From a virus, in the IMG/VR virus record IMGVR_UViG_3300025630_000085, positions 1-20,243 of that record: a DNA stretch of 20,243 nt. One strand, given 5' to 3'. The position numbers and the translations under genes are program-made. This document shows positions 1 to 14,213 of this stretch, piece by piece. Numbering within the stretch: position 1 is the stretch's first letter; every line of letters starts with the position of its first letter. The notes beneath the pieces were generated by a model that had not been told where the DNA came from, made no database searches, and was given only the letters and a program-made list of their open reading frames with translations.

Positions 1-229
1 CTTGACCAGCAGCAATAGCCGCATTAGCCGCAGTCATATCCTCTGTAGTCCAGAAGTCCTTAGCAACCATAATCTCAAGATGTTCAACATTCCTGTCTAC
101 GCAATCCTGCTTATCTGCTGCATCATCATCAGCCATAGCCTCACCAGCAATGATAGCATTGATGAGGTCAACGCTGTGACCCATCGCTGTGTAATGTTGT
201 GCGATTTGTTCTGCTGTTAGTTCGTCCAT
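1..229 (-). CDS. Small conserved marine-phage protein, 3' end cut by window edge
   Basis: An open frame runs from ATG at 229 to the left edge and gives 76 residues beginning MDELTAEQIAQHYTAMGHSV. The start overlaps the stop of the second fibre gene as TAATG, and a GGAG lies 8 bases upstream, so translation is probably coupled to the fibre. Visible motifs are a polar N-terminal helix, an acidic ADDDAADK patch, and a VEHLEIMVAKDFWTTEDMTA block followed by an Ala-rich stretch. From memory, short proteins with this pattern follow fibre genes in many marine phages, but I know of no proven function. A structural or assembly role is only a guess from position. The plus-strand frame across the same bases is a shadow: it lacks a Shine-Dalgarno and resembles nothing I recognise. 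Confidence 0.8.
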   Translation of the reverse strand, partial: MDELTAEQIAQHYTAMGHSVDLINAIIAGEAMADDDAADKQDCVDRNVEHLEIMVAKDFWTTEDMTAANAAIAAGQ

Positions 230-2121
230 TAGTTTGTCTCCAGTGCTACAATGCGTGTTTCTAATTGGTCAATCTTTGTTAGTGCTTCCTGCAACGCTGC
301 GGTTAGCAACGGCACAAGTTTGCTTTGGTCAATGCCTTGCATCACTGCATTGCCATCTGCGTCCACCTCATTGTGTGTGCCTGTAACTGCTTCAGGTACA
401 ACTGACTGAACTTCGTGTGCTAAGAAACCATCAACAGTTGTGTCAGCATCTACAATAAAGTTAAACCGCTTTGGTGCAAGCTGCTGAACACGGTCTGCTG
501 CGCCTGTCAGTTCAATTACGTTTTCTTTGAGGCGGTAGTCACTTGAAGTTGAATAGGTTGTGCTAGTATTGTTTATTGTAATTTCACCAACAGTTGTTCC
601 ATTATATTTGAACCGATTGACTGCGCCACCGCCAGAAACTGTATTGTTATATGTAAAACCAATTTTTGCCGGAGCAGACCAAGTAAGGTTTAAGAAAGCA
701 TCATTATAGTCTGGGTCAGTTCCCCAATTTACAAAACCACTTGAGTTAATTGTTTGTCTAGGATTACCATCGCCATCCGACAGCACGATGTTGTTGCTGG
801 ATGTGCGGATGTCTAGGCCGCCTTGGTCGCCGTTGTAGCGACCTAAGATAGTGTTTCCGCTACCTGAGGTAACATAATAGCCACTCTCCATACCTACAAA
901 TGTATTTCTAGTGTCAGTGGAAGAATACCCTGCTGACCCGCCAATAAAGGTGTTGTAACTATTTGAAGTTTGTGAGTATCCCGCCTGATAACCAACAGCA
1001 GTTTGATAACCACCGGTGGTGTTGTTCTGTAGTGCTGAACGGCCTATAGCCGTGTTGTAGCTAGCGGTGGTGTTTGACTGCAATGCGGCACGGCCAATAG
1101 CAGTGTTGTAGCTGCCTGTGGTGTTGTAGTAAAAGGTGTCCTTACCCATAGCAACATTATCAAAACCTGTGGTATTAAAATACCCAACACCTTTACCAAC
1201 AGCAGTGTTGTTTACAGCCGTTGTATTACTATACAAAGCCTGATAGCCTACAGCCGTGTTGTCAGATGCGGTGGTGTTGGAGTAGAGTGCCTCCTGCCCC
1301 ATAGCAGTATTGCTTCCGCCAGTAGTGTTAAACCGCAGTGCCTGAACACCAAACGCATTGTTGTAAGAGCCAGTCGTTGTGTATCTCAACGCCTCATAGC
1401 CCAGTGCGTTGTTTTGCTGGGCAGTTGTTCCTGCGTATGAAGCCCGATATCCCACAGCGGTATTGTAGCTTGCGGTGGTGTTTGACCCTAAAGCCAAATA
1501 CCCCAAACTAACATTATTTGTTCCAGATGTGTTCTGATACATCGCAGCATAGCCAAGCGCAGTGTTACCAGATGCAGTGTTAGCTTCAAGTGCTTGCTGA
1601 CCAACTGCCACATTGTCGTTGCCAGTGCTGTTAGCGTACAACGCCGTTCGACCAATGGCTGTATTAGAAGCACCAGTGGTTCCAGTGTAGGATGCCTGAT
1701 AACCCACTGCTGTGTTGTTGCTGGCGGTGGTGTTTGCCGAAAGTGCAAACCTGCCTACAGCCGTATTGCTTGCACCAGTAGTGTTTGCAGATAGAGCATT
1801 ACCACCTAAACCTGTGTTGTAATTTCCTGACGTGTTTGCGTCTAACGCAAAAGCACCAACAGCAGTATTCTGTATTCCACCAACATTTGCCGTCAAAGCA
1901 AGTGCGCCAACGCCAGTGTTGTTATCACCAGTAGTGTTTGCCGTGAGTGCGGCATCACCTATTGCGGTGTTGTAATTGCCATCAGAAGCAACGCTGTCCA
2001 AAGCAGTGTTACCCAACGCCACGTTTTGTGTACCAACAGGATAGTTACCATCCAGTTTGATGGTGCCGCCGTCTACATCAAGGGTCTTATGCTGGTCTGC
2101 AAGTTCTCTTGCTCTAGTCAT
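229..2121 (-). CDS. Second tail fibre with 17-residue beta-roll repeats and Peptidase S74 chaperone end
   Basis: The 630-residue protein is very probably a trimeric receptor-binding fibre or tip. Residues 1-32 are a short head starting MTRARELADQ, a beginning seen in other phage fibres. Residues 33-427 hold 24 repeats of about 17 residues with the pattern N-T-A-[VIL]-G-x-x-A-L-x-x-N-T-T, probably a beta-roll shaft like YadA-type heads. A less repetitive domain follows to about 520. The C terminus from about 525 is a Peptidase S74 intramolecular chaperone, with SDYRLK giving the catalytic Ser527/Lys532 spacing. It ends in a coiled coil (about 603-630). By family knowledge the S74 part guides trimer folding and then cleaves itself off before the serine. 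The start overlaps the stop of fibre 1 (TAATG), with GGAG 8 bases upstream. No gp17-type virion anchor is present, so it must attach through another protein, possibly fibre 1. Confidence 0.85.
   Translation of the reverse strand: MTRARELADQHKTLDVDGGTIKLDGNYPVGTQNVALGNTALDSVASDGNYNTAIGDAALTANTTGDNNTGVGALALTANVGGIQNTAVGAFALDANTSGNYNTGLGGNALSANTTGASNTAVGRFALSANTTASNNTAVGYQASYTGTTGASNTAIGRTALYANSTGNDNVAVGQQALEANTASGNTALGYAAMYQNTSGTNNVSLGYLALGSNTTASYNTAVGYRASYAGTTAQQNNALGYEALRYTTTGSYNNAFGVQALRFNTTGGSNTAMGQEALYSNTTASDNTAVGYQALYSNTTAVNNTAVGKGVGYFNTTGFDNVAMGKDTFYYNTTGSYNTAIGRAALQSNTTASYNTAIGRSALQNNTTGGYQTAVGYQAGYSQTSNSYNTFIGGSAGYSSTDTRNTFVGMESGYYVTSGSGNTILGRYNGDQGGLDIRTSSNNIVLSDGDGNPRQTINSSGFVNWGTDPDYNDAFLNLTWSAPAKIGFTYNNTVSGGGAVNRFKYNGTTVGEITINNTSTTYSTSSDYRLKENVIELTGAADRVQQLAPKRFNFIVDADTTVDGFLAHEVQSVVPEAVTGTHNEVDADGNAVMQGIDQSKLVPLLTAALQEALTKIDQLETRIVALETN
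841..2025 (-). repeat. 24 coding tandem repeats, about 51 bp each, in the second fibre
   Basis: Twenty-one of the 24 units are 17 residues (51 bases) long; one is 18 and two are 16. The 24th unit keeps only its first five residues clearly. Each begins with an N-[TVN]-x-[VILMF]-G block and most carry A-L near position 8 and N-T-T or N-T-S near position 12. Units are clearly diverged at the base level, so this is an old protein repeat rather than a fresh DNA expansion. All length changes are whole codons, so the frame is kept. Confidence 0.9.
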
Positions 2122-5100
2122 TATACATTCTCCAATGCGGTCAAGCGTGTTTCAATATTAGCCAGACGCTGTTCAGTTGCGGCACCCACAAAGGCAAGCA
2201 ACTCAGGATAGCGGATGCCAAGCCGTGTGCGTTCAACAGCACCTTCTGGGGCTTCTTCTGCTGTGTCGTAGGTGTCAGTGCGTGTGTAGGCTGCAACGGC
2301 TTCTACAGCCTCAATAGCCTCACTAACAAGACGCTGTTCAGTGCGTTCTGGTTGTGCCTCAACAATGACGTTGCCATCTTCATCAAGTTCTTCCTCAACC
2401 GCTGGAATAACAACATCCTCATAGACTGCATCAACAGCTTCCACAGCCTCAACAGCCGGAACCTCTGTCTGTGTTTCCCACCAAGTGCTGCTAATGAAGA
2501 ACGCATAGTCACCAGCGTCCAAGCCAGCGGCAGTCATAGCTGCTTGAACATCCTGTGCGATTACGCCAGCGTGTGTTCTTGCTGCGTCGCCTTTCTCAGT
2601 AACTGCGCTGTTCCACTTAAAGGTCTTGAACAGTGCGCTGATAGCTTTAGCGGCTGTGATTTCAGCATCAGTCAGAGTTGCGATTTGCTGCTTTTCGTTA
2701 GCGTCAGATGTTTGGATAGTGCCATTGGTGGCATAGATGTCGTCAAAGCGACCGGACGAAAAACCTAAATCCACAACATTGTCTGTGTAAGTTGTGCCGC
2801 CGGTTGTTGGAAGTAACGAGCCACCACCAGAGCCAGAACCTGTTAACCCAGCCGAACCTAAACCGATATAAGCCTCCCCTGAAGTTCTTGCCCCAATACT
2901 ACCCACAGCGGTGCCGTCCTTGCGGAACACTGCAATGTCGCCATCGTTGGCCTGTCTGTTTAACTGTAGCGGGGCGGCTCGACGTGAAACAAAGGCAGTA
3001 CCACTTGCAGCACCACCGATTGATGCACCTATAAATGTTGTAGTTGCACCACCATCACTTTCATCATAGCCACCATCAGCAGTAGTCGTCCCCACCAGCA
3101 CGTTGCCGCTGCTGTCGATGCGCATACGTTCTGTGTTGTTTGTGCCAAACTGAATGAAACTGTTTTGAACATTCCACACAGACATTCCATTTCCAGTTGC
3201 CCAGCCAACGTAAGCTCTGTCTGTTCCAGCTAATGCCCCAAAGTAATAATTACCGCCAGTAAGCAATGCATTTCCAGTGGCCGTCACAGTGCCAGTGACA
3301 TCCACGCCTGTGCTGGTGGTGGCTAGTTTAACGGCGTTGTCGTAGTATAGCTTTACGTCAGCGTCAGCGTTAAACTGTGCGCAGGTTTCGCCAGTATACT
3401 TTGAAATAATAACGCCGGGGTCGCTGCGAAGATATAATCTGCCACTGCCAGTGTCATCAATAATGCTATTCGACCCATCGTGATAAATCTGCAAGTCCTG
3501 AGAAGCACCTAGCTGTATCTTCTCATTGTCACCTAATGACAAGGCAGTAGCAGCAGTAAACGTGCCGTAGGCTACAATATCAACAACATCGCTTGTTGTA
3601 GCAGCAGTAGCAAGAGTTACGTCTGTACCGTTAGTAGCTGTAAAATCACTGGTAACAGTCAGCTTTGCACCATTCAAATAAACATCCACATAGCCAGCAT
3701 CATAAGTTGCAGGGAATACTGTGGTGCTTCCTGTGTATGTGCCAGATGCTGTGCCTACCACATAGTTGTAGCGATTAGATGTGCCATTTACTGATGAACC
3801 GGCGTTCACAAAACCGCCAGAACCGTACACCTTCATAACGTCATTAGTTGTATCAAACCATAAATCGCCAAGAGTAGGTGATGATGGTGCTGTTGCGCTA
3901 ACAAAATAGGTATCACCAAAGTTGTTAATGCTGGCAATGCTGTTTGCTGCATTAACGACTGAGGTTATGTTTGTACCAACAGTGTTTACGTTGCTAATTG
4001 AACCAGCAACAGTACCAATATTAGCAGTGTTTCCAGAAACGGTGGTAACATCACCTGAGATACCAGCAACAGTTGTTACGTTAGCGGCAATGCCAGAAAC
4101 AGTATCAATGTTTGTTTGCTGTGCGGCTGTAGGTGTTAGCTGTTTCCAAGTTGTATTACCAAGGTCATAGACCTTCATCACATTATCAGTGGTGTTAAAA
4201 TATAAATCGCCGTCAGTCAGCGCATTGCCATCTAAGTCCGTTGTCGGGTCTGATGCCAAAGAACCTAGATATTGGTCTGTGAATGTATCTAATGCTGCTT
4301 CCGCTGCGGCTTGTGCATTGGATGCTGCTGTCGCGCTGTTACCTGCATTTGTCGCGCTTGTTGCGGCGTTAGAAGCTGATGTTGCGGCATTTGTTTCACT
4401 TGTTGAGGCATTGCTTGCGCTTGTGCTTGCGGCTGATGCTGAAGCCGCCGCAGCCGTTGCGCTGCTTGTTGCGCTTGAAGCCGCCGTTGTTGCCGATGCT
4501 GCATCTACCAATAAATCCCATTTTGCGCTGTCAGTATTGGTTGTTAGTGGCTGTGAACCGCTAGATGTGTGCGCTGTGTTAGCAATAAAAATATTGTTTG
4601 TGCTTGTGTCTTTTACCAGGTCACGGACAGCATAAGTTGTTCCTGTTCCCCAGTTACCCTTAAATGTCCCTAGTTCTTGCGTAACACTAATCTCACCATT
4701 GCTGTCAAAGGCAAGGATTTTGTCTGCACGGTCAGCCGCACCAACAGTAAACTCTGTTGAAGTCATTGTATTTGTACGGGATAGCTTGATAGAACGGTCT
4801 AGTTCTTCTTGTACCTCTTGCACAAAGAATGTCAGCTTATCCAGGGCATCTTCATGCGCTTCGGCTGGGAACGGGTCATTCGGCGTATAGTCCGTTGTCT
4901 GTGTCTGGGCTGACTCGCGCCGTAGCACAACTGTTTTGCCTGTGGCTGGCGCTGTGACAAACGTAATCGTGCCGCCACCAGCATTACCTACACCAGATAC
5001 AGTGTAGTTTGTGGTGATGGTCTGGACGGTTTCAGTAGCTGTGGCGTTATCGCGCAGAATTACTGCAATATCGTCCTCGTCAAAAATCTTGAACGTGTAC

Positions 5101-5165
5101 GAAAACGCAACGGTGCTGCTATCACCCGCGTAGCTATTTTTAGTTGTGGTACTGCTAACTGTCAT
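2121..5165 (-). CDS. Tail fibre with T7 gp17-like virion anchor and Peptidase S74 end
   Basis: The 1014-residue protein is the main tail fibre. Residues 1-150 match the T7 gp17 N-terminal domain that binds the tail (SYAGDSSTVAFSYTFKIF, LRRESAQTQTTDY, EAHEDALDKLTF). Residues 169-219 have a W..G..Y..D.V....W pattern like small carbohydrate-binding modules. Residues 222-293 are an Ala/Ser/Thr heptad-like shaft. Two DLxFxTTxxVMKVY modules (319-345, 433-455) flank five to six decapeptide repeats (352-401). An LNGAKL beta domain (489-536) and an LQIYHDG shaft (549-590) follow. The C-terminal S74-like chaperone begins near 819: SDANEK keeps the Ser820/Lys825 spacing, and an acidic VEAVEAV-rich insertion (about 901-963) precedes the final helices. 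The start has AGGAG 6 bases upstream. It follows the gp16-like gene after 53 bases and is coupled to fibre 2 by TAATG. Confidence 0.9.
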   Translation of the reverse strand: MTVSSTTTKNSYAGDSSTVAFSYTFKIFDEDDIAVILRDNATATETVQTITTNYTVSGVGNAGGGTITFVTAPATGKTVVLRRESAQTQTTDYTPNDPFPAEAHEDALDKLTFFVQEVQEELDRSIKLSRTNTMTSTEFTVGAADRADKILAFDSNGEISVTQELGTFKGNWGTGTTYAVRDLVKDTSTNNIFIANTAHTSSGSQPLTTNTDSAKWDLLVDAASATTAASSATSSATAAAASASAASTSASNASTSETNAATSASNAATSATNAGNSATAASNAQAAAEAALDTFTDQYLGSLASDPTTDLDGNALTDGDLYFNTTDNVMKVYDLGNTTWKQLTPTAAQQTNIDTVSGIAANVTTVAGISGDVTTVSGNTANIGTVAGSISNVNTVGTNITSVVNAANSIASINNFGDTYFVSATAPSSPTLGDLWFDTTNDVMKVYGSGGFVNAGSSVNGTSNRYNYVVGTASGTYTGSTTVFPATYDAGYVDVYLNGAKLTVTSDFTATNGTDVTLATAATTSDVVDIVAYGTFTAATALSLGDNEKIQLGASQDLQIYHDGSNSIIDDTGSGRLYLRSDPGVIISKYTGETCAQFNADADVKLYYDNAVKLATTSTGVDVTGTVTATGNALLTGGNYYFGALAGTDRAYVGWATGNGMSVWNVQNSFIQFGTNNTERMRIDSSGNVLVGTTTADGGYDESDGGATTTFIGASIGGAASGTAFVSRRAAPLQLNRQANDGDIAVFRKDGTAVGSIGARTSGEAYIGLGSAGLTGSGSGGGSLLPTTGGTTYTDNVVDLGFSSGRFDDIYATNGTIQTSDANEKQQIATLTDAEITAAKAISALFKTFKWNSAVTEKGDAARTHAGVIAQDVQAAMTAAGLDAGDYAFFISSTWWETQTEVPAVEAVEAVDAVYEDVVIPAVEEELDEDGNVIVEAQPERTEQRLVSEAIEAVEAVAAYTRTDTYDTAEEAPEGAVERTRLGIRYPELLAFVGAATEQRLANIETRLTALENV
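3963..4112 (-). repeat. Decapeptide repeats in fibre 1
   Basis: Residues 352-401 of fibre 1 form five copies of a 10-residue unit with the pattern [N/D]-[I/V]-x-T-V-x-G, followed by one degenerate copy. Such short repeats usually make a beta or coiled shaft segment. Base-level units are 30 bases long and diverged. Confidence 0.7.
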
Positions 5166-5218: not shown

Positions 5219-8200
5219 TTATTCCGGCAAACTTTCCACCGTTTCAAGCCCAGCCTTTGCCACCTCAATCATCGTCAGATAAAGCTGGTCAATCATCTGG
5301 CGTTTTTCTTTGGCACTCATCGGCCCCGCGTGAACAAGCCTTATCGTCTTGTTTATGTTAGACAAAGTATCTCTGAAGCCTAAAAGCGGTATTAAGTTCA
5401 AGTCAGTATCACTAAGCACTCCCCGCGCTTCTGCCATGCGTCCTTCTTTTTGTAGCTTTTCAATGGTAGCCATGCGACCACCAATCTTCTCATATTTGCG
5501 GTAAAAGTCCTCTATGTATTGGGAACTGCCCGTTGGTTTACGCACTAAAAAGGCACGAATAACAGGCAAGTCCTCAAGCGTCTTCTCTGGTTTGGTCGGC
5601 TGAACCACAAGCCCAGAATCAATTAAGGCTTTGTCAGCGGCCTCTACGGCGTATCTACCTAGAGTTCCAGTCCAAGAACTTATAAGGTGGTCAATCTTTT
5701 GCGGGCTAGAAGGGCCATAGCCAAATGTTATTTCATTGATAAGTTTTCCTAAGGTTTTGGCCGTGGCGCTAGTGTACTGGTCATACTGAAACTCAGGCAG
5801 CATGTTTTCCATACCGCGCGACACAATCGGACGGTCTGTGAAAAAGTTTTTGTTTGCCCAAAACTCAAGACTTGGTTTAGCAAAGTCAGGTATTGGCCCC
5901 ATAGATAAAACCGAGTCTTTAGCAAAGTCTCCAAAAAACTTACCTAAATGCCCAGGGTCTTTGTCTTCAACAAAATCCATCATACGTTCAGCGCCAGTGC
6001 CAAACAAAAGACCAAGTTCAAACGGCTTCGGAATGCGCCAAACAGTATAGTCCTCTGGTTCGTTCACCGTTCCATCGCCAGTTATAACAATCCAAAATAA
6101 ATCTTTTTGCCATCTAGGGAGTTGTTTGTAACGTGGGTCGTCATGGTTTTTGTACCAAAGCAACATGCTTGGAAGTGTAATATATGCAAATATTTTGGCT
6201 GACGTTTGTGCTGGACGCTTTTGAAACGCCTCATATATCTTTGCGTAACCTTGGACACGCGCATTGAAGAACGCGGAAATCATGTTCCACCCTTGCATTT
6301 GCGTACCCATCTTTGAAAAGTCGATAGTAATGTCACGGCTTTCAAATCCAGCACGTTCCATAATGTCTCTATCAGTCAGCTTCTTTTGCTTTTTTAGTTG
6401 GTTTACAGCAAGGCTGTACTGGCCTATACGCCCAGAACTTTCAAATAATTCTGATGCAGCACGAAGCGCCTCCATTGGGTTTGTTATTACATTTCTAACA
6501 TTCCCTGATGTGAGGTACTTTTGCATGTCTTGCCTAAAATAATTTCTGTCAAAGCTAACAAGCATTGACTGCATTGCGCCTGATTTTGTCCAGTCTTTAT
6601 ACAGTTCTGTCTTGTTGACCATGTGCCAGAAACCCATAGCGTTGTGGTAAAATGGAACAAAACCACGGTCGCTAAAAATAGCTGCTGACAGGGCATCTCT
6701 GGCTAGGTTTCTTGCCATAAAGTCTGGGGCAAGCGTTGCGCCAGCGCGTAACAATCTTGATGGAGTGCCAAGGAACTTTAACAGCATGTTAGATTGGTAT
6801 CGGTTCATGTCAGTTAAGGCTTGGGCAATGTCGTTCCCAACCTCCCAGACTTCACGCTTTCCGTTTCTAAATACAGCTATTTCGCTTTTACTTACCACCT
6901 GTCCATTCCGGCGAAACACAGTCATTCCGTCAGCATATTCAGGCTTCAGGACACCATCAAAAACAGCATTGAGTTCCTCTGGTGTTATTTTGGTTCCACG
7001 GGCTTTAGATACTTTTCGTATCTCAGGGAACGCCTCTGGCAGCGCCTCCACCATTTCAATGAACTTTGTGTAGGCGAAGTTTCGTTCCGCTATGGCAATA
7101 TGAGACAATGTGTTTAGGTGTATTGTAGTCAGTGGGTCTTGTACCTTTCGCTGGCTACCCTTAAACTTCTTCATAGGGTTGCGCACTGCCTGACTGAAGT
7201 TGTCAGATTTCATGCTAACCCTGTCATCCATAACGCGGTTAAACGGAACGTAATCTCTGTTCATTTCCAGCATGGCACTGCGCAACTCAGCAGATATGAC
7301 ACCGCTTTCAAAAAGGTATTGGACACCTCTGTCTTGAAACTCGACTAACTCTCTGAACATTGGTTCGTACTTCGCCCCCAATTCAGCGACTGTCTGGCGG
7401 GATGCAGCTATATCGAACCCTGTTTCAAATCCTTGTTCTGTTTTTTCCAACGCACGTTTAGCAACCGCATAAGCAGTAAAGTCTTTTATTTCTCTCTCTG
7501 TCTTTAATGGTTCAAGCACTTTCATCAGACTTTTGCCATTGATTTCTAATGTTTTGAAATCAAGCGTTCCGTGCTGCAAAAAGTGCATGCCGCGACCAAT
7601 CATGCCAGGCTGAAGCCGCATTTGTTCATAAGGCGTCATAGTTGTCTCAAACTTACCACCTTGTTCTTCAAAGTTTCTAACAGCGCGTAGTACAGGATGA
7701 AGCCTGTCTATAAACTGCGTAGTAAATAAAGCCCTAACGTCAGACATGGCTTCGCGTGGTTTTGGTGCTTCAAACTGCACATTTTCCAAAACCTTGCCGA
7801 CTGCTTCTGTAGTAGGGATTTCTTTTGGGGCAGCATCCGTCCTTGCTGCTTCAGCCGCAGCCCTTGGTTCAATCCCACTTTCCCGCAAAGTGTTATATCT
7901 TTCTGTATTTATAATCTCACTGCGGATGTTTACGATGTCTTCTGGTCGCACTTCGTACAATACATCTGGCGTTTCTCGTTTGGGGTTTGAACCTTCTTTA
8001 AACGGCTGTATTGCTTCTGTAGGTTCAATCGGGTCTCTAAACCTTTCTATGTTTTTGCTGGCTAAGTCTTCTTGCATGCGTGGGTTTAATTCAACCTGTT
8101 GCACAACCTCTACTGTAGACTTATCGGTTTTTTTCATGCGTTCCGTGAACATACGTTTAGCTTTTGCGCCGCCTTCAAAACCGCCAAATGTTCCGAGAAC

Positions 8201-11390: not shown

Positions 11391-11812
11391 CACATCACCC
11401 TTGCCATGCGATAGTAGTTACTACCGTCTGGCCCAAATTTATACATAACACCTTCATCTTCAAACCCCATCCATCTGGCAAATCTAATCGCCTCTGGGTC
11501 GCCCGTGTGAATACTAGCTTGCACACGGTGTAAATTCGTTGTTGCCAGTATACTACTAAACAGTGTCTTAGCATACCTAGCTAGTGACAGCTTCCATTTC
11601 GGCGCATGCTTGGACAGGATTACCCAGCCCTCGCCAACACCATCCCACATCTCATGTATGCCGCCGACAGCCACTACATCATCATCGCCCATCACAGCAT
11701 AGCCGATAACTTGCTTGCCGTTGTCAAACGCAGCCCGCATGCTTTCTGGAAACTCAAAGTCAGTCTCAATGCTATTAACAAGGCTAGAGTTGAATGGCAC
11801 AATCCTAAGCAT
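11390..11812 (-). CDS. GNAT-fold protein at the T7 gp13 position
   Basis: The 140-residue protein has the look of a GNAT acetyltransferase fold: a central VIGYAVMGDDDVVAVGGI strand pair, then LHRVQASIHTGDPEAIRFARWMGFEDEG, which matches the last helix and the typical GF strand. In T7-like phages the gene in this place (gp13) has a similar fold and is needed for virion assembly rather than known for acetylation. The acetyl-CoA loop (Q/R-x-x-G-x-G/A) is not convincing here, so catalysis is doubtful. The C-terminal MYKFGPDGSNYYRMARV is characteristic of this phage family. The gene overlaps the tail tubular B gene by 8 bases. A GGAGG lies 13 bases upstream, farther than usual. Confidence 0.72.
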   Translation of the reverse strand: MLRIVPFNSSLVNSIETDFEFPESMRAAFDNGKQVIGYAVMGDDDVVAVGGIHEMWDGVGEGWVILSKHAPKWKLSLARYAKTLFSSILATTNLHRVQASIHTGDPEAIRFARWMGFEDEGVMYKFGPDGSNYYRMARVM

Positions 11813-14213
11813 CGAAAGTGTTTGACCTCCGCATGATAGCCAACACAGTCATAGGCAATGGCTGTGACTGCCGCACAATAACCCGTGCATCTGTTTCGTA
11901 CCCTGATGGGAAGTAAATCTCTTTGTCGCCTGTAAACAACGGCACGGCTTGGTTCATAGCCATGCTGCTATCACGAAATGGCAGCCTGTCTAGGTTGTTG
12001 AGGTCTGGCCCCAACTCTGCGCCGACTGTCTTAAAGAACCGCGCAGTCACGCCATGAATACGCTTAATCTTACCTTGGGCAATGCCGTCGTCAGCACCAG
12101 CCTCTAGCCGCAGCGTCTCAATGGTAGACGTGTATCCATAGCCTAAATGTACCTTAGATGCTGAACGGTCTAGTGTGACCCGCCCACCCGATACAACTTT
12201 GTCAGCATGTGTAGAACCGTCAGCTAGGATGGAAACAGTCTCACCCTCTAAATGATTTAGTCCACTAATGGTGGTTGTAGCTGAACCGTCATATGTCAAA
12301 CCGCTGTCTAAGTAGAATGCATCCTCAACATCATCGCCAAACTCAATAGTCTTTAGATATTCAACATGGCGCACAGTAGCGCCGTCTATAGTACGCTTCA
12401 CGGATATATACACTTGGTCTTCTGCGCCAGATGGGATAGCCGTAACACTCTCAACAATGCCGCTGCCACCAATGTCGTGGTCATGCCAGCCGATAGCTGC
12501 ATTAGCGCGGTCGTATGTTAGCCCAATCAACCGTCCATCATTATGGACAAACCACACAATAAGTTCTGGTTCCTGTTGCCACACCATGTCAATCAAGCCG
12601 CCACGCGGAATATGGTCAGCCAGGATGGTTAAGTCGATGCCCAGCAATCCATCAGTGTCCAAGTCAAAGGTAATCTCCTTTACCTTCTCTTGCCCCTTCT
12701 GGATAAGGATGGTGCTGTTGCCAGCCCGTAGCGGTCTTACCTCTGAACAACCGAATGTCGTCTCACGCAGCACGTTTACGTTTGTTGGCGTAACTGGCGT
12801 AGCGCCTGTGCCGCCCGATAGCGTAAATTCTGCGCTTGTAGTCAAGATTTGCAAGAAACGCGCTGGAAGCAAATGCCGGATAACATTCACCTTGTCTGAT
12901 GCAATCGTCAGGTTTACTGCGTCGTCATCATTCGTACCAGGCGTGTGGTTCTCAAAGTCTGCACTAACAGAACCAAATACAGTCTGCGGCTGGCCTGTAG
13001 TACCAGCAAAGTATAAACGTTGTTCATAGAAGCCTACTGCCTTTGGGTAGCCTTGGTCGCCGCCAAATGCACCTAGTGACCATTTCTTTGTGGCATTGCC
13101 AGAACCTACAATGTGGTCAGGCAAGTTGCTATTCCCAAATGAATCTTCTTTTACTATAGCCGTAACCGTTGTTGAGTTTGTGAAAGCAGTTATTTCAACG
13201 TAACCTGTAGCATCATGGTCGTAACGCCAATCAACCGAACCATATGTCTCTGTGCCTTCTAGGTGTACTGGCGGTGTGTTCCCAGATGTTTGGGTAGAAC
13301 CATTTACCTGAGTATACACATGTCCATTATAACGTACAGATACACCACTAGCATAGCTGGTGCTTGCCGCCCACTCATCATGTTCAATTTCAAGCACCTC
13401 GCGGAACCTGATGTAACGCCCAACATCCGCTGCGGTAAACAATGCTGCCGATGCTGTAACTGTTACACTTCCAGTCTGGGCTGACGCATATAGGGTTGTT
13501 GCTGTGTCGTTCTCGTCAAGGTAAGGCCCATCAACAAAGTCAATGTCAGTCAACGTAAAGCTGGTAGCTGTTGTGCGAGTTAGTTTGGCTGGCGCATGGT
13601 CTTTGTGTGCGATGTACAATACATCAGCAGACTGTGCGTGGTTGATTTCAAAGATGTCCGTAACTGAATATGTAGTCGTAACCTCAACAATCTTCGATGC
13701 TGTGCCGCCACTTGTGTATGCGTTAAACGCCGTGCTGTCTATACCAGACAATTCAAATGTATTAGCCGTTGTATTCGCTACAGTAAATTCACGGTTATTC
13801 AACTCTGTCATGCCAGCAACACCGGATATTAGTACCCTGTCGCCGTTTGTGAATGTGTGTGAAGTAATTGTAACTACGGCAGGGTTTGCTTGTGTAACCG
13901 CTGTGATGCTTTGTGCAGCCTCTGTTAGCAAACCGCCATCTTTATAGAAGCGAATATAGTTAGCGCCAAACTCAAGTACATATGCCTGTTCATCGCTGAA
14001 CTCAAAGTCAATCAATCTAACCTTGCCTCCGTCTTTTGTGCGTCCAGCAAAGTATGTGCCTGGTCTCCGTGTAACGCCGCCCGACGGGTACACAACCATA
14101 TTGTTTAAGGTCTGGGCAGCTTCATTGTACTTTTGTAAGTCAATGCGGCCTTCTAGCTTTGGGGATATTTCACCAGTGCGAAAGTTGGTGATGATTGTGG
14201 ATACACGCGCCAT
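11805..14213 (-). CDS. Tail tubular protein B (gp12-like nozzle) with inserted domains
   Basis: The 802-residue protein forms the tail nozzle in T7-like phages. The N terminus is diagnostic: FRTGEISPKLEGRIDL, YPSGGVTRRPGT and the VRLIDFEFSDEQAYVLEFG strand region. Two inserts stand out. Residues 98-175 resemble an E1 FCCH-like beta barrel (HTFTNGDRVLISGV, MTELNNREFTV, AYTSGG), as found in many phage nozzles. Residues 278-332 have W281, a YNGHVY loop, P314-P315 and W329, the layout of small carbohydrate-binding modules. The core resumes with FYEQRLYFAGT and CSEVRPLRAGNS, and ends QPLPMTVLAIMRRS. The start has AGG 8 bases upstream. The gene lies 2 bases after tail tubular A and overlaps the GNAT-like gene. 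Confidence 0.9.
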   Translation of the reverse strand: MARVSTIITNFRTGEISPKLEGRIDLQKYNEAAQTLNNMVVYPSGGVTRRPGTYFAGRTKDGGKVRLIDFEFSDEQAYVLEFGANYIRFYKDGGLLTEAAQSITAVTQANPAVVTITSHTFTNGDRVLISGVAGMTELNNREFTVANTTANTFELSGIDSTAFNAYTSGGTASKIVEVTTTYSVTDIFEINHAQSADVLYIAHKDHAPAKLTRTTATSFTLTDIDFVDGPYLDENDTATTLYASAQTGSVTVTASAALFTAADVGRYIRFREVLEIEHDEWAASTSYASGVSVRYNGHVYTQVNGSTQTSGNTPPVHLEGTETYGSVDWRYDHDATGYVEITAFTNSTTVTAIVKEDSFGNSNLPDHIVGSGNATKKWSLGAFGGDQGYPKAVGFYEQRLYFAGTTGQPQTVFGSVSADFENHTPGTNDDDAVNLTIASDKVNVIRHLLPARFLQILTTSAEFTLSGGTGATPVTPTNVNVLRETTFGCSEVRPLRAGNSTILIQKGQEKVKEITFDLDTDGLLGIDLTILADHIPRGGLIDMVWQQEPELIVWFVHNDGRLIGLTYDRANAAIGWHDHDIGGSGIVESVTAIPSGAEDQVYISVKRTIDGATVRHVEYLKTIEFGDDVEDAFYLDSGLTYDGSATTTISGLNHLEGETVSILADGSTHADKVVSGGRVTLDRSASKVHLGYGYTSTIETLRLEAGADDGIAQGKIKRIHGVTARFFKTVGAELGPDLNNLDRLPFRDSSMAMNQAVPLFTGDKEIYFPSGYETDARVIVRQSQPLPMTVLAIMRRSNTFDA

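Follow-up and report, generated by a model that had tools for sequence, protein, structure and literature searches.

How does a phage fibre that has no tail anchor of its own join the virion? The question is raised by two neighbouring fibre genes in the IMG/VR virus record IMGVR_UViG_3300025630_000085, analysed here over its full 20,243 bases (the window); all genes lie on the minus strand, as do all window coordinates given below. Fibre 1 (2121–5165; 1014 residues) begins with an anchor, whereas fibre 2 (229–2121; 630 residues) does not. Tail-fibre regions are among the most variable parts of marine phages, and how these phages attach several receptor-binding proteins (RBPs) is, to our knowledge, mostly unknown. 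We found that fibre 2 starts with a short peptide tag shared by many marine phage loci, and that fibre 1 contains an internal domain, MAYIG, with which the tag co-occurs. We consider it probable that the two fibres form one anchor-branched receptor-binding complex, with the tag of fibre 2 plugged into the MAYIG domain of fibre 1.

The candidate plug is the N-terminal stretch of fibre 2, residues 1–13 (MTRARELADQHKT; 2083–2121). The protein begins MTRARELAD, a form of the tag M-[S/T]-R-A-R-D-[L/F/I]-A-D; other phages have its body, a shaft of NTAxG repeats ending in an S74 chaperone, joined to many N-termini that are unrelated. A strict version of the motif, [ST][RKN][APST][RK][DE][LIFTA][AS][DNK], occurred at residue 2 in 38 open reading frames (ORFs) and elsewhere in none (1456 non-redundant ORFs, 588,033 residues), and a looser version at residue 2 in 42 and elsewhere in 4 (1624 ORFs). 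Because the strict count came partly from loci picked by homology to fibre 2, we also scanned by DNA pattern alone (degenerate, 27 bases). All 118 loci examined among the matches listed read M[ST]RARD[LFIM]AD near the start of an ORF, with an in-frame stop 0–27 codons upstream of the tag or else the contig edge. Tag positions 3 and 5 were Arg in all 105 distinct cases listed, though the pattern permitted Ser. Most of these Arg codons were AGA, the pattern itself fixing several bases. A signal in RNA or DNA, rather than in the peptide, was rejected on the Asp codons of the same 105 cases, whose third positions are free (GAT/GAC 58/47 and 45/60). The tag sequence had no match in the PDB, and no phage paper turned up when the full texts of one literature library were searched for RARDLA, RARDFAD, RARDIAD, RARDLAD and RARELAD.

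What stands behind the tag varies widely. The 90 non-redundant tagged proteins of at least 100 residues fall into 18 body clusters, and one, at locus L011, matches C1q (E 5.9e-6). Tagged genes are spread over phages of different kinds: L288 has a match to a T7-type internal virion protein with an endolysin domain, L345 one to the central tail fibre J, and in the cultured roseophages the tag and MAYIG are found on gp48 and gp51 of CRP-7 and on gp37 and gp43 of CRP-1, respectively. Three loci (L292, L326 and L328) have tag ORFs of 55, 58 and 52 residues that end in ...AMAIALGG without a receptor-binding body; these recall the truncated second RBP that PMC6872550 describes for KP32 group C. Loci L349 and L362 each encode two or more tagged proteins, which suggests more than one branch. 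Directly before the tagged fibre of L046, at 7713–7994 of that locus, and in equivalent places elsewhere is a protein of about 94 residues (MALTEETIQDKIEIVGDYKHVQVRT..., PHROG 6228); it holds this position in 12 of 13 inspected loci that lack direct coupling to the upstream fibre.

The candidate socket is the MAYIG domain at residues 458–540 of fibre 1 (3546–3794), matched by a hidden Markov model at 475–539. It centres on GYVDVYLNGxKL in fibre 1 and takes its name from the opening residues of those proteins in which it comes first. A set of 44 deduplicated loci of the anchor family, each extending at least 5.5 kb downstream, had a tagged gene (loose motif) in 11 of the 15 with MAYIG and in none of the 29 without (Fisher 1.8e-7); by the strict motif the counts were 8/15 and 0/29 (p 3.6e-5). 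Two other domains of fibre 1, used as controls, were rejected as sockets. DLYF, of which fibre 1 has one copy at residues 297–340 (4146–4277) and a shorter one at 428–450, showed no association with the tag (8/31 loci with the domain, 3/13 without; p=1.0), and for ICC the counts were 1/11 and 10/33 (p=0.24).

The association was also seen from the side of fibre 2. Among genes with the same NTAxG body and at least 3 kb upstream, MAYIG lay upstream of 16 of 21 that were tagged and of 1 of 34 that were not (p=1e-8). The lone untagged case, L024, starts MSKARVLAN, which is close to the tag in form. In four of the five tagged exceptions MAYIG lies downstream, on a fibre gene in L026 and L045 and on a gene in L216 and L242; the fifth is L214. 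In the pattern-scan loci listed with at least 3 kb upstream, MAYIG was upstream in 42 of 46, elsewhere in one and absent from three. When loci were fetched in reverse, by MAYIG, a tag-like gene followed in 20 of the 27 distinct loci that extended 2 kb or more past the gene bearing MAYIG. Tag residues 10–18 correlated weakly with MAYIG subtype over 62 pairs (Mantel r=0.30, permutation p 0.0005), and residue 7 gave r=0.04 (p 0.085); we do not use this correlation, because common descent explains it equally well.

The two genes are not always close. Among the pattern-scan loci listed, they were less than 600 nt apart in 36 of 63 and further apart in 27. Such distances would suit a tag that binds another conserved tail part (an adaptor, a nozzle or a small neighbour protein), with MAYIG a mere companion and the fibres separate RBPs; so would the presence of tagged genes in phages as unlike as L288, L345, CRP-1 and CRP-7. 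We nevertheless judge this unlikely. Within one anchor family the tag follows MAYIG, not DLYF or ICC, and an association that persists despite the distance between the genes fits a protein partner over mere linkage.

To examine the fold of MAYIG, we modelled residues 287–645 of fibre 1 with AlphaFold2 (mean predicted local distance difference test score (pLDDT) 81.9, predicted template modelling score 0.39) and aligned model residues 172–254, which correspond to fibre 1 residues 458–540, with VIA-align 2. The top match was 9d84_B, from Gp48/Gp49 of Shigella phage B2 (Z 8.5, 65 aligned, root-mean-square deviation 2.3). Others were 9efk_AE (Z 8.4), residues 187–250 of CBA120 TSP4 (7rfv, Z 8.2), 9f4b_FA (Z 8.0), 8ck1_B (Z 7.6), 8i4m_M of P-SCSP1u (Z 7.3), residues 157–255 of the T4 baseplate chain 5iv5_AC (Z 7.0) and the N-terminus of T7 gp17 (7boz_b, Z 6.8). 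At 602 residues, 5iv5_AC has the length of T4 gp10. Tail fibre anchors, tailspikes and components of the neck or baseplate make up most of the top matches, several of them being components at which fibres or spikes branch. The region of G7C gp66 that binds gp63.1 is described as homologous to gp10 D2–D3 (PMC6872550), the N-terminal region of TSP4 as binding partner spikes (PMC7506556), and gp48 and gp49 of phage B2 as one complex (PMC11654681). We infer that chain B of 9d84 is part of gp48. A viral fold library gave many marine tail-fibre matches, few of them named, and was not used.

Of the accounts that fit the genes, the tag, the link to MAYIG and the fold matches together, an anchor-branched system of the G7C/KP32 kind is the simplest. 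Fibre 1 would bind the tail through its gp17-like N-terminus, and the anchorless fibre 2 would insert its tag, MTRARELAD, into the candidate gp10-D2/gp17-like domain at residues 458–540 of fibre 1. Each fibre, predicted to be a trimer, would fold with the help of the S74 chaperone at its own C-terminus; the chaperone would then cleave itself off at Ser820 in fibre 1 or at Ser527 in fibre 2, and both mature fibres would be carried by the virion, whatever their stoichiometry. The first-pass annotation had left the choice between a branched fibre and two separate RBPs; the branched option is now supported and gains a candidate docking pair, suggested by the co-occurrence of tag and domain. Whether the M[S/T]RARD[L/F/I]AD plug and the MAYIG socket also form an interchangeable docking standard for RBPs across unrelated marine phages we regard as evenly balanced. 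If they do, tips of any fold could be swapped onto anchor fibres with the joint unchanged. With a short tag and a named candidate socket, secondary RBPs could be recognised, and matched to their partners, by sequence alone; RBPs marked by the tag could then be tested singly.

Several observations weigh against this account. The loose motif was widened after we had inspected L163, L168 and L250, and once more for the reverse fetch by MAYIG; the tag of fibre 2 itself, with Glu for Asp (RARE), lies outside the scanned DNA pattern. Seven of the 27 loci fetched by MAYIG had no tag. In the 59 pattern-scan loci listed with less than 3 kb upstream, MAYIG was upstream in 21, elsewhere in 5 and absent from 33. 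With redundancy kept and loci of at least 6 kb, MAYIG was present in 44 of the 50 loci that had the tag, leaving six without it, and in 22 of the 161 that had no tag. The structural scores of the MAYIG model are middling and largely tied, and Foldseek found no match for it in the PDB at E<=0.001. Because tails often contain the gp17-anchor fold, the fold alone is no proof of docking. Finally, the link between tag and domain is one of co-occurrence: the loci share descent, and there may be other reasons for tag and domain to move together.

Fibre 1 had been annotated as having a gp17-type anchor and fibre 2 as having none, and both statements stand. Residues 1–125 of fibre 1 (4791–5165) match the tail protein family PHROG 1640 (E 1.1e-37), and residues 1–131 match tailspike Dpo31 (28lx_A residues 1–133, E 1e-13). 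Among the Pfam matches of fibre 1 listed at E<=0.01, the model for the N-terminus of the T7 tail fibre does not appear, and we therefore call the anchor gp17-like on the PHROG and PDB matches rather than a member of that Pfam family. P-SCSP1u gp28 is described as held between adaptor and nozzle through an N-terminal jelly roll and a helix (PMC10575957); by analogy, fibre 1 is likely to be anchored in the same manner. In L011, L012 and L094, close relatives in anchor sequence, an anchor-only protein of 246 residues is followed by a series of separate proteins.

Each fibre also has its own S74 intramolecular chaperone, as had been claimed. Both match Pfam PF13884 (Peptidase_S74; cut-off 22 bits): fibre 1 at residues 820–882 (45.1 bits, E 1.3e-11), within a chaperone spanning residues 820–1014 (2124–2708), and fibre 2 at residues 527–580 (35.3 bits, E 1.5e-8), within one spanning residues 527–630 (232–543). 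There was no further S74 match in the whole record. The Ser...Lys(+5) pairs had been named exactly, as Ser820/Lys825 and Ser527/Lys532. In an alignment of 30 sequences, comprising fibre 2 and its relatives, the columns of Ser527 and Lys532 do not vary, and S-D-x-x-x-K is kept in 110 of 119 non-redundant relatives of the fibre 2 C-terminus. The fibre 1 chaperone aligns by sequence with 7y5s, 6eu4 and 4uw8, and 3gw6 and 3gud are also listed. At window positions 2280–2470, a long Glu-, Ala- and Val-rich insert (...VEAVEAVDAVYEDVVIPAVEEE...) separates its conserved core from the C-terminal end.

Residues 300–630 of fibre 2 gave a weak AlphaFold model (mean pLDDT 65.7), the C-terminal end of which resembles the MyRF ICA domain (7dc3_B; Foldseek E 6.2e-4, Z 8.1) and the K1F chaperone (3gw6_D, Z 7.8), in keeping with an S74 fold. 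The shaft, at residues ~33–420 (862–2025), has about 20 NTAxG repeats with a period of 17 residues. Pfam gave no match to a head repeat of the YadA type for this shaft; fold matches of the repeats in the low-confidence model were general beta-helices and pentapeptide-repeat proteins, with YadA absent among those listed. A tag that is short and stands in front of bodies of many kinds might instead serve folding, by nucleating the trimer or capping the N-terminus, with attachment lying elsewhere. We give this little credence: similar NTAxG-S74 bodies lack the tag and stand behind other N-termini, a folding tag would have no reason to track MAYIG, and in known cases S74 already supplies trimerisation.

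Neighbouring genes that both bear S74 occur elsewhere (L168, L179, L186, L234 and L237, among loci fetched by relatives). In L053 and L068 an S74 fibre lies upstream of a tagged fibre that ends at the contig edge. The tagged second gene lacks S74 in L074 and L086, the upstream fibre lacks it in L043, L046 and L056, among others, and in L016, L038, L116, L225 and L241 a gp17-like anchor is fused directly to an NTAxG-S74 body in a single protein. Because related loci vary in which fibre bears it, S74 is a property of each fibre tip; one S74 per fibre is real, but it does not belong to the pair as such. S74 fibres in tandem are also seen in other marine phages and are not what makes this locus remarkable.

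The two fibre genes are coupled by TAATG (2119–2123), in which the fibre 1 stop codon and the fibre 2 start codon have one base in common. The first-pass annotation had read this correctly identified junction as a hint of a fixed ratio, a reading that we reject: overlapping junctions are the rule in the window (9 of 17, with a gap of at most 3 nt in 14 of 17), and so TAATG carries no special hint of one. A Shine–Dalgarno-like GGAG (2130–2133), within the end of fibre 1, precedes the ATG of fibre 2. That fibre 2 stays outside the virion, or is an alternative fibre seldom built in, is scarcely credible given its intact S74 dyad, its own ribosome-binding-like site and the recurrence of the two-gene layout in other loci.

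A third gene (2–229, MDELTAEQ..., cut by the window end) is coupled to fibre 2 by TAATG, again with a GGAG just upstream; the first-pass annotation does not mention this overlap. It had no match in Pfam and weak matches only in PHROG. This small protein (5987–6226 in L013) is a habitual neighbour of NTAxG fibres: of 85 distinct copies that have a gene in front of them, 78 follow an S74 protein, and 75 are preceded by a protein with at least four NTAxG repeats. In five cases (L209, L221, L226, L242 and L248) the preceding NTAxG fibre has a C-terminus of quite another kind. The role of the small protein may lie with the repeat fibre rather than with S74. PMC10579305 describes fibre chaperones that are separate proteins and are similar to S74 chaperone domains.

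The fibre locus, in the order fibre 1, fibre 2, third gene, follows other genes of the window, among them one for a large protein with an LPD38 domain (Pfam). The LPD38 protein has full-length relatives in HTVC010P-type pelagiphages, for example HTVC034P (35% identity over 99%). The window also encodes a PF12236 head-tail connecting protein (Pfam), and a major head protein and tail proteins (PHROG). A large tail protein (11805–14213) has a CBM_5_12-like match below the cut-off (E 1.7e-4) and an E1_FCCH match. A search for a close isolate relative of the window found none, giving a single 52-base match only. Fibre 2 is identical over all 630 residues (100%) in IMG/VR contigs L013 and L015, where a fibre 1 gene adjoins it.

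The anchor-branched plan itself is known from KP32 (gp37/gp38) and G7C (gp66/gp63.1). There, as described in PMC6872550 and PMC13082707, the first protein combines an N-terminal anchor with a T4gp10-like branching part, and the second is anchorless, with a short conserved N-terminal peptide (KP32); the genes are adjacent and the bodies swap freely. The present locus is alike in its anchored fibre 1, in its anchorless fibre 2 with a conserved N-terminal peptide and in the neighbouring genes. It differs in that the peptide is RARDLAD-like, S74 ends both fibres, the candidate socket follows a long helical stretch and a single tag motif spans many marine phage loci. In Shigella phage B2 (gp48/gp49, PDB 9d84), with a 69-residue chain to which the MAYIG model aligns best, a tail fibre and a tailspike are reported in one complex, but gp49 is described as an esterase spike. 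Among TSP1–4 of CBA120, the part of TSP4 that aligns with the MAYIG model (187–250) falls inside the N-terminal part described as binding partners; that system differs in having four spikes on a baseplate, with partners bound through head domains and not a short tag, according to PMC7506556. The K1F endosialidase, the T5 L-shaped fibre and MyRF have the same C-terminal S74 chaperone with Ser...Lys(+5), matched in sequence or structure, whereas here two coupled genes have one S74 apiece. The new elements are the tag, which many marine phages share, and its candidate socket.

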